Positions 36,429-38,361 of a DNA stretch of 61,740 nucleotides are shown one piece after another. The stretch spans positions 1 through 61,740 of the forward strand of contig JAVKGX010000010.1 in NCBI GenBank assembly GCA_031432545.1, written 5' to 3'. The translations under genes and the position numbers were made by a program. The stretch comes from Armatimonadota bacterium (GTDB lineage Bacteria > Sysuimicrobiota > Sysuimicrobiia > Sysuimicrobiales > Sysuimicrobiaceae). The notes beneath the pieces are model-generated. The model was not told where the DNA came from and did no database searches. It was given only the letters and a program-made list of their open reading frames with translations. Positions within the stretch are counted from its first letter, which is position 1. Each line of letters opens with the position of its first letter.

Positions 36429-36731
36429 ATGACCTACAGGGCGTCGCCCACGCCGGATGCGTCCGGACGGATCTTGGGGATGGTCGTGTTCGTCGTGGGC
36501 GTGGCACTGCTGCTGTTGGTGTTCTACCTGGCCTACGGAGAGCTCACCGGGGGCATGCTGGGTGGACTCGCCGCAGCACCCACCGCGCAACAGGGACCCA
36601 ACCTCAACGTCGCGCTGGTCCTGGTGCTGAAGGCGATCTTCCTGTTCATCCTCGGCTACCTGGCCTCGGCGGTGGCGGGCCGCGGCATCGGCATGTACCA
36701 CGCGGCGCGCCTGACGGAAACACCAGAGTGA
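36429..36731 (+). CDS. Small two-helix membrane protein of unknown function
   Basis: The protein is 100 residues from ATG 36429, with AAAGGAGGG about 8 bases upstream. Two hydrophobic helices, LGMVVFVVGVALLLLVFYLAY and LVLVLKAIFLFILGYLASAVAG (each quoted in part), are joined by a Gly/Ala/Pro loop. The short tail reads GIGMYHAARL. No family is recognised. It is flanked by a 103-base gap upstream and by a hairpin with two T5 tracts downstream. Confidence 0.75.
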   Translation: MTYRASPTPDASGRILGMVVFVVGVALLLLVFYLAYGELTGGMLGGLAAAPTAQQGPNLNVALVLVLKAIFLFILGYLASAVAGRGIGMYHAARLTETPE

Positions 36732-36762: not shown

Positions 36763-36791
36763 ATTTTTCTCGTGCGACGAGAAGGATTTTT
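36763..36791 (+). terminator. Hairpin with flanking T5 tracts, likely terminator of the small membrane protein gene
   Basis: TTCTCGT at 36767-36773 pairs perfectly with ACGAGAA at 36777-36783 around a GCG loop; TTTTT follows at 36787-36791 after GGA, and another TTTTT precedes the stem. It is 36 bases after the stop. Separation from the following peptide gene suggests that gene has its own promoter, or that this is an attenuator. Confidence 0.5.
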
Positions 36792-36844
36792 GCAGGCTGC
36801 CTTCGTATTTGTAGGACAAACCACAGGAAAGGAGGTACCGAGCC

Positions 36845-36928
36845 ATGGCGGCCAAGAGAAAGAAGGCAGCTGCCAAGAAGACCTCCGCCAAGAAGACGGC
36901 GAAGAAGACCGCCAAGAAGAAGCGGTAA
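36845..36928 (+). CDS. 27-residue Lys/Ala-rich basic peptide
   Basis: ATG 36845 opens a 28-codon frame ending at TAA 36928. The product begins MAAKRKK, contains three KKT motifs in the middle and ends KTAKKKR, with 14 Lys/Arg out of 27 residues and no acidic or aromatic residue. A near-perfect AAGGAGGT ribosome site lies at 36829-36836, 8 bases before the ATG. Composition resembles the C-terminal tails of histone H1-like or extended HU proteins, suggesting nucleic-acid binding. It is followed by a strong GC hairpin. It is too short for most gene callers. Confidence 0.65.
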   Translation: MAAKRKKAAAKKTSAKKTAKKTAKKKR

Positions 36929-36954
36929 CGCTTCTGCTGCCGTCCGAGGTACAT

Positions 36955-36980
36955 GAGGGCGTCGCAGATGCGGCGCCCTC
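36955..36980. terminator. GC-rich hairpin between convergent genes, possible bidirectional terminator
   Basis: GAGGGCGTCGC at 36955-36965 pairs with GCGGCGCCCTC at 36970-36980 (one G-T wobble) around an AGAT tetraloop. It lies between the stop of the plus-strand peptide gene and the stop of the minus-strand MCE gene. There is no long T tract, so termination strength is uncertain. Confidence 0.5.
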
Positions 36981-36996
36981 GTCGCTTCGAGGCTGC

Positions 36997-38361
36997 TCAG
37001 AAGCGGTACTGAACGCCGATGCCCCAGGAGCGATCGTAGAGGATGTCGCGCAGGTGCAGCGAGATGGCCCAGCTCGGCTGGAAGCTGTAGTACGTCGTGA
37101 GGTCCAGCGTGAGTCGGTTCAGATTGTACACATCCAGCATGGTCAGCCAGTTGTGCGCGATTTGGTAGTCGAGCCCTAGCCCGATGTGTGATTGGATGAG
37201 GCCCACCCGCCACCCCAACGTGTCGGACAGCCGGAACCCAGCCTGCAGGTTCAGGTAGTTGCCCCGGCCCACGTCGTGGAGGCCCAGCCGATAGTAGCGC
37301 GGCTGCCCGTGTGCCACCCACACGTCCAGGTCGTGGCGGAACGCCGTGGCGCTGTCGTACCAGAGCCCGTAGGAGAACCGCAGGCTCGGCAGCAGCGGGA
37401 CGGCCGCCTGGATCCCCTGCACGAAGCCGGTGACCGCGTCAACCCCACTGCTCACCTTGTCCAGCACCTCGCTGGCCTTTTGCACCGCAGTGCGCGCGTC
37501 CGCGATGATGCCGCGGACTTCTGCTACCTGGTCGGGGTTGACGAGTCCTTCCTGCAGCGTCCGGGCCATCTCGTCGATGCGGCGGGCCGTACGCTCGATC
37601 GAGATCATCGTCTGTCGGATTTGTGCTGCCAGTTGTCCGTCACCGGCGACGTCAAAGACGAAGGTCTGGACCTGCTCGGCGATACCCACCAGCTCCGACG
37701 ACACCGCGCGCAGGTTGCGCACGGTCTGTCGGGCGTCCGTCCCCACGGCCGCCACGAGACCATCCAGCCGCCTGGTGGCGGCTTCGACGTTCGTCGCGGC
37801 CTGGCGGAGCGAGGCGCGCAGCGCCGGATCGGTCACGACGTCGCGGACACCGAGGACCGTCAGGTTCAGGTTGTCGACGACCTGCTGGCTGCTGCGGACC
37901 ACGCTGCGCACCTCCTGCACCACCGCCCGTAGGTCCGCGGACAGCTCGTCGATCCTCTGGTAGATCGCGTCCAGGCTGAACGGCGGTTCCCCAGCCACCA
38001 CCTCCCCCGGGTCGATCGGGGGACCGACCTGCGCGGGCTCCACCGAGAGGTAGCGCTGACCCAGCAGCGTGCTGGTGGCGATGAAGAACCGGGAGCCGCG
38101 GGCGATTTCCACCCCGGGCCGGATGCGGACGCGCACCTCGGCGCGGTTGTCGGGCGTCAACGCCAGCGACTGCACGGTGCCGATCTGTACGCCGGCCATG
38201 CGGACGGCCGTCCCGGGGCTCAGGCCCTCCGCGTTGGTGAACCGAATCCGGATCTCATATCCGGGTTCGGCCAACAGTCCCCGGCCCAGAAAGGCCAGCA
38301 GTCCGACGAACAGGACGGCGGCCAGGACGACGATCAGTCCGACGCGCACCTCGGTCTTCAT
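36997..38361 (-). CDS. mlaD: MlaD-like MCE-domain protein with C-terminal barrel-like extension
   Basis: This 454-residue protein has an N-terminal membrane anchor (VGLIVVLAAVLFVGLLAFLG). One MCE domain follows, covering about residues 38-115 with FTNAEGLSPGTAVRMAGVQIG and an LGQRYLSVEPA end. About 190 residues of helical coiled coil follow (DDAIYQRIDELSADL-like heptads). The last 120 residues alternate polar and aromatic residues (LRFSYGLWYDSATAF, LTTYYSFQPSWAI) and end in VQYRF, the terminal-Phe pattern of outer-membrane strands. MCE proteins shuttle lipids between membranes. It is the last gene of a minus-strand mlaE-mlaF-mlaD operon. The barrel-like ending suggests direct contact with an outer membrane. 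Confidence 0.88.
   Translation of the reverse strand: MKTEVRVGLIVVLAAVLFVGLLAFLGRGLLAEPGYEIRIRFTNAEGLSPGTAVRMAGVQIGTVQSLALTPDNRAEVRVRIRPGVEIARGSRFFIATSTLLGQRYLSVEPAQVGPPIDPGEVVAGEPPFSLDAIYQRIDELSADLRAVVQEVRSVVRSSQQVVDNLNLTVLGVRDVVTDPALRASLRQAATNVEAATRRLDGLVAAVGTDARQTVRNLRAVSSELVGIAEQVQTFVFDVAGDGQLAAQIRQTMISIERTARRIDEMARTLQEGLVNPDQVAEVRGIIADARTAVQKASEVLDKVSSGVDAVTGFVQGIQAAVPLLPSLRFSYGLWYDSATAFRHDLDVWVAHGQPRYYRLGLHDVGRGNYLNLQAGFRLSDTLGWRVGLIQSHIGLGLDYQIAHNWLTMLDVYNLNRLTLDLTTYYSFQPSWAISLHLRDILYDRSWGIGVQYRF

Follow-up and report, generated by a model that had tools for sequence, protein, structure and literature searches.

A lysine-rich mini-gene next to mlaD

The window, i.e., the whole stretch of 61,740 nucleotides that we analyzed, comes from a genome (G000), probably of hot-spring origin, of the Sysuimicrobiota (CSP1-3), a phylum that has been described previously (PMC11604079). 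In the genome set used for comparison, the phylum was represented by a single order. On the forward strand, the window carries a very short open reading frame (ORF) that is followed by a hairpin and by a convergent mlaD-like gene (Table 1). Its product consists of 12 Lys and 2 Arg residues out of 27 (52% basic), without a single acidic or aromatic residue, so that the original prediction, made from the letters alone, of a Lys-rich peptide with over half Lys/Arg was accurate. The ribosome site had been described as excellent; it sits inside a leader, GGAAAGGAGGTA(N)CCGAGCCATGGC, that is invariant in the family (see below). The mlaD-like gene was named from the earlier label and the gene order, and its 3′ end flags the mini-gene locus in four families. 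The predicted placement between MTAP and mlaD holds only on the mlaD side; the immediate neighbor upstream is not MTAP but the ORF of a small membrane protein. The latter adjoins the mini-gene in family f3 too, and in the other genera of the window's own family (f1), a threonine-aldolase gene is found between them.

Table 1. Features of the mini-gene locus, in window coordinates
Feature	Position	Strand	Remarks
Small membrane-protein ORF	36429..36731	+	100 aa; immediately upstream of the mini-gene
Promoter-like element AGGATTT-N14-CGTA	36783..36807	+	From the alignment of seven f1 upstream regions; counterpart of the motif
Shine-Dalgarno site AAAGGAGGT	36828..36836	+	8 nt ahead of the mini-gene ATG
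Mini-gene	36845..36928	+	27 codons plus TAA; product MAAKRKKAAAKKTSAKKTAKKTAKKKR; orthologues in the family, counterparts in other families
Hairpin, probable terminator	36953..36982	.	13 bp; between the convergent mini-gene and mlaD
mlaD-like gene	36997..38361	-	Convergent neighbor

The strong downstream hairpin, also anticipated, is well supported: the 75 nt that were folded have a z of -3.95, no shuffled version folds equally well, and in relatives the stem is preserved with compensatory changes. In the window, there is no T run after it on the forward strand, while relatives have GCTTT or GTTTT at this point. Since the mlaD-like gene is convergent, the hairpin is probably a terminator common to both genes. 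No further ORF of 10 to 60 codons led by a Shine-Dalgarno (SD) site and with at least 40% Lys was found on either strand of the window or of a 700-kb sample of G000 and G020. The product had no match in Pfam or NCBIfam at an E value of ≤1 (its low complexity weakens such searches), no relative in PHROGs, and no match at an E value of ≤10 in the PDB, which includes many ribosomal chains, when the G005 form of the peptide was searched with phmmer. Rfam gave no match to the mini-gene either (two scores were far below threshold), and we found no description of such a mini-gene in the literature that we searched.

Conservation within the family and across the order

We compared the window genome with six other genomes of family f1. 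The mini-gene is found at the same place in all six, and the frame, the leader, and the position are preserved in 7/7 genomes, the leader GGAAAGGAGGTA(N)CCGAGCCATGGCGGC being identical throughout. Lack of conservation of the frame and of the ribosome site in close relatives had been named beforehand as what would refute the original prediction, but both are present in every one of the six. The mini-genes are 27, 29, or 30 codons long, and the changes in length are in frame (+6 or +9 nt). With such a rare composition, and with frame, leader, and position kept in the family, the ORF is confirmed by sequence comparison as a real gene, beyond what chance would produce.

Single-protein and profile searches recovered no copy outside f1, and the more distant ones were recovered by reading the DNA that adjoins mlaD together with the pattern of Lys codons. 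In this way, Lys-rich mini-genes of 11 to 30 codons were found beside mlaD in three more families (f3, f4, and f5), so that products of 11 to 30 residues occur in at least four families of the order, and the mini-gene evidently predates family f1. The mlaD-linked products are MAAKATAKKAAAKKAPAKKAAAKKATKKKK in G009 (f4), and MAKKAKKAKKKGK, MAKKAKKAAKKKGK, and MAKKAKKGKKK in G017, G020, and G035 (f5), respectively. In G008 (f3), the product begins GAAAGGAGGAACCGAGCCATGGCG, but the frame is lost from about codon 11 onward; in a run of C, this copy (L019) is one base shorter than the others, which could be either an error of the metagenome-assembled genome (MAG) or a real lesion. Every intact mini-gene product has 40 to 64% Lys and no acidic residue.

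Family f5 has a second locus, in which a mini-gene is located between genes that look by eye like an acyl-CoA dehydrogenase and an SLH protein. Five genomes encode MAKKAKKAAKKKGK there, and G026 encodes MAKKATKKKAGGKKKGR. This locus was seen in G010, G017, G020, G023, G032, and G026 (L094, L104, L087, L096, L095, and L105); the mini-gene has 14 to 17 codons there and a GTG start, and in several genomes the leader contains a conserved GACGGC...GCCGTC hairpin. In G010, G023, and G029, no mini-gene was found at the mlaD place, where threonine aldolase abuts mlaD, but G010 and G023 retain the copy at the second locus.

In a screen of 386 genomes for an SD site followed by a MAKK-type start, all matches were in f5, except for a single TTG site of low complexity in a genome that is not related. 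K-rich matches in unrelated genomes (L082 and L085) were rejected as relatives, as they are segments of longer H1-like proteins. The leader pattern also matches one Streptomyces site (L041). In family f2, an SD-led ORF encoding MAKKKKKMKM and followed by a terminator-like hairpin (G013:C276, L123, around 1504) is a lone hint of a possible distant counterpart. No mini-gene was seen in those f7 genomes that have the clearest HU motif (see below), and no convincing one in f2. The peptide is thus not required by HU everywhere, which counts against the role proposed below.

A promoter class shared with HU

The motif AGGA[AG][AT][ATC]-N13/14-CG[AT]A is located upstream of 17 of the 18 mini-genes; the copy in the window deviates from it at a single letter. 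It should be noted that the motif was derived from the mini-genes, so its presence there is partly circular, which is not the case for the matches at HU. Among 30 HU loci of the order, the strict motif precedes HU in nine (families f4, f5, and f7) and a looser form does so in 12 more; given that these loci are mutually related, the nine strict matches amount to perhaps four independent cases. In samples of two genomes (700 kb), the background was 3 matches in 800 kb of strand DNA and 6 matches in 600 kb, a level near chance, as the reversed motif used as a control gave 2 and 2 matches. At this rate, a strict match in a 125-nt upstream region has a chance of ca. 0.001. No strict match occurs in the window. 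At the HU genes of f1, the spacing between the two elements is 2 nt shorter. A scan for sigma-70 promoters upstream of the mini-gene found nothing. A HU-type motif is also found 46 nt ahead of a lipoprotein-like gene starting VRALSIGRLAAALAAALVVSSCGSG (G000 C1, L153, minus strand, 1789), which is possibly a further member of the promoter class.

As for the factor that reads this promoter, sigma-H is a lead. Its consensus is RNAGGAWWW at -35 and RNNGAATWW at -10 (PMC8510167). The former is matched in G000, G001, G003, G008, G017, G020, and G035, and most other genomes have G at one of the W positions. The GAAT core is found in the -10 element of the mlaD-linked mini-genes of f4 and f5, and AGAAT is found upstream of most f1 HU genes and some f5 ones. 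However, the -10 element of the f1 and f3 mini-genes is CGTA, which is not the sigma-H core, and CGAAC is found at the second f5 locus. The genome of the window encodes a sigma-H homologue (TIGR02859; 347.8 bits against a cut-off of 294.8), and this family scores above its curated cut-off in 36/43 genomes of the order and in 1/14 control genomes; in G000 the homologue lies at C1:694823-695416. All this suggests, rather weakly, that a sigma-H-type RNA polymerase might read the promoter of the mini-genes and HU.

Possible roles of the peptide

The mini-gene product has no HU domain (PF00216) and resembles the Lys/Ala-rich tails of actinobacterial HU and of histone H1. It contains repeats of the PAKK/KAAK type (KKAAAKK and AKKTAKK in the window, KKAPAKKAAAKK in G009), and mycobacterial HupB depends on its PAKK/KAAK tail to associate with the nucleoid (PMC5676037). 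Like the tails of the actinobacterial HupB and HupS, it is rich in Lys and Ala and looks like a disordered polycation, but whereas those tails are fused to HU (PMC5676037), here the mini-gene is separate, has 11 to 30 codons, and is associated with HU through a common promoter class. HU itself is tailless, a long K-rich tail being absent from all 30 HU loci of the order examined. Similarities also extend to Hc1 and Hc2 of Chlamydia and BpH1 of Bordetella, with Lys/Ala/Thr/Pro-rich repeats, variable length, and presumed binding of DNA or RNA by charge, Hc2 being a charge-repeat binder of both (PMC2848022). However, these proteins are far longer (165 to 237 aa for Hc2), Hc1 has an N-terminal dimerization domain (PMC2848022), and homology to the mini-gene is undetectable. 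The AlgP protein of Pseudomonas has a comparable H1-like, K/A/P-rich, low-complexity tail, and KPAA peptides of this type bind DNA; unlike the mini-gene product, which is tail only, AlgP combines a helical N-terminal domain with a 154-aa repeat tail (PMC9239181).

With moderate confidence, we propose that this conserved single-gene transcription unit encodes a free polycation similar to the tails of H1 or HU that, read from a rare HU-type promoter, most likely coats DNA. The original prediction had suggested a nucleoid-compacting or RNA-binding peptide resembling an isolated H1 or HU tail, and this reading is now the best supported one, because the mini-genes and the tailless HU of the same order have a rare promoter class in common. 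Driven by the same type of promoter, the peptide and HU would be made together. The peptide would then coat DNA, and possibly RNA too, by charge, neutralizing the backbone, and would act as a tail in trans that helps the tailless HU to compact the nucleoid. Judging from the composition and the co-regulation, binding of DNA or RNA by charge is the most likely activity; expression and a partnership with HU are likewise inferred. We put forward much more tentatively a split HU system, in which a tailless HU would be complemented by a histone-like tail supplied in trans from one or two mini-genes of 11 to 30 codons under the same dedicated promoter class. With the tail and HU encoded by separate genes, such a split would allow the cell to set the ratio between the two. 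Composition alone does not separate DNA binding from RNA, ribosome, or polyphosphate binding, and other roles were weighed.

One of them is that the functional molecule is the transcript, either as a small RNA or as a dual-function RNA that happens to contain a short ORF, the peptide being secondary. The leader is strongly constrained, and across three genera 8/11 fourfold-degenerate sites of the mini-gene are invariant, compared to 6/32 in HU and 25/106 in mlaD of the same genomes (Fisher's test, P ≈ 0.001; the numbers are small, with the mini-gene codons taken from L001 to L006 and L008). This seems to be more than codon preference, since specific codons such as ACG GCG are retained at fixed positions, and it leaves room for a role at the RNA level; a simple peptide acting by charge only does not predict it, which counts against our best explanation. 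RNA-level function, extreme expression, or some other factor may be the cause. On the other hand, the length changes in f1 are multiples of three, the SD site and the start codon are preserved, and across the other families the charge pattern survives while the nucleotide sequence does not. Rfam provides no support, and the predicted pairs within the ORF scarcely vary, so that support from covariation is absent. On balance, a primarily RNA-based function appears unlikely.

We also find it unlikely that the product is a small basic protein that stabilizes ribosomes, as bTHX, bL37, or Sra. In size and charge, the product is similar to bTHX and to other ribosomal proteins that are basic and very small, the ribosome site is strong, and isolate names point to hot environments as the probable source of some related MAGs. 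The product is nonetheless not expected to have a folded core, and in f1 no aromatic, Gly-rich, or folded core is present; none of the searched collections, ribosomal chains of the PDB included, gave a match, products in f5 are as short as 11 to 14 residues, and the promoter class is that of HU. A role as counter-ion for another polyanion, e.g., in polyphosphate granules, is quite improbable. It has been proposed for the AlgP tail, as AlgP associates with these granules in starvation (PMC9239181), a timing that a sigma-H-like promoter would fit, but we saw no link to polyphosphate genes, and the HU-like promoter points to DNA instead. A regulatory leader peptide or attenuator, suggested by a hairpin that comes after a short Lys-rich ORF, was rejected because no gene follows in the same direction (both the window and the related mlaD-linked loci have mlaD in convergent orientation), and a chance ORF within a conserved intergenic element, however short and low in complexity this one is, has an equally negligible probability and is refuted in practice by its conservation, i.e., its recurrence across the order at the same place with an SD site and promoter, with nothing comparable in the 700-kb sample.

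Beyond the original prediction, the comparison adds a gene that spans the order, with paralogues, and a promoter class in common with HU. H1-like Lys tails are known in bacteria as parts of larger proteins, while here the gene encodes only the tail, down to 11 residues. Similar genes can be found through their locus and promoter, as protein homology fails at such lengths. The mini-gene would make it directly testable whether a tail must be attached to HU. If the DNA-coating role is correct, these peptides would be a minimal component of the nucleoid that gene callers overlook.
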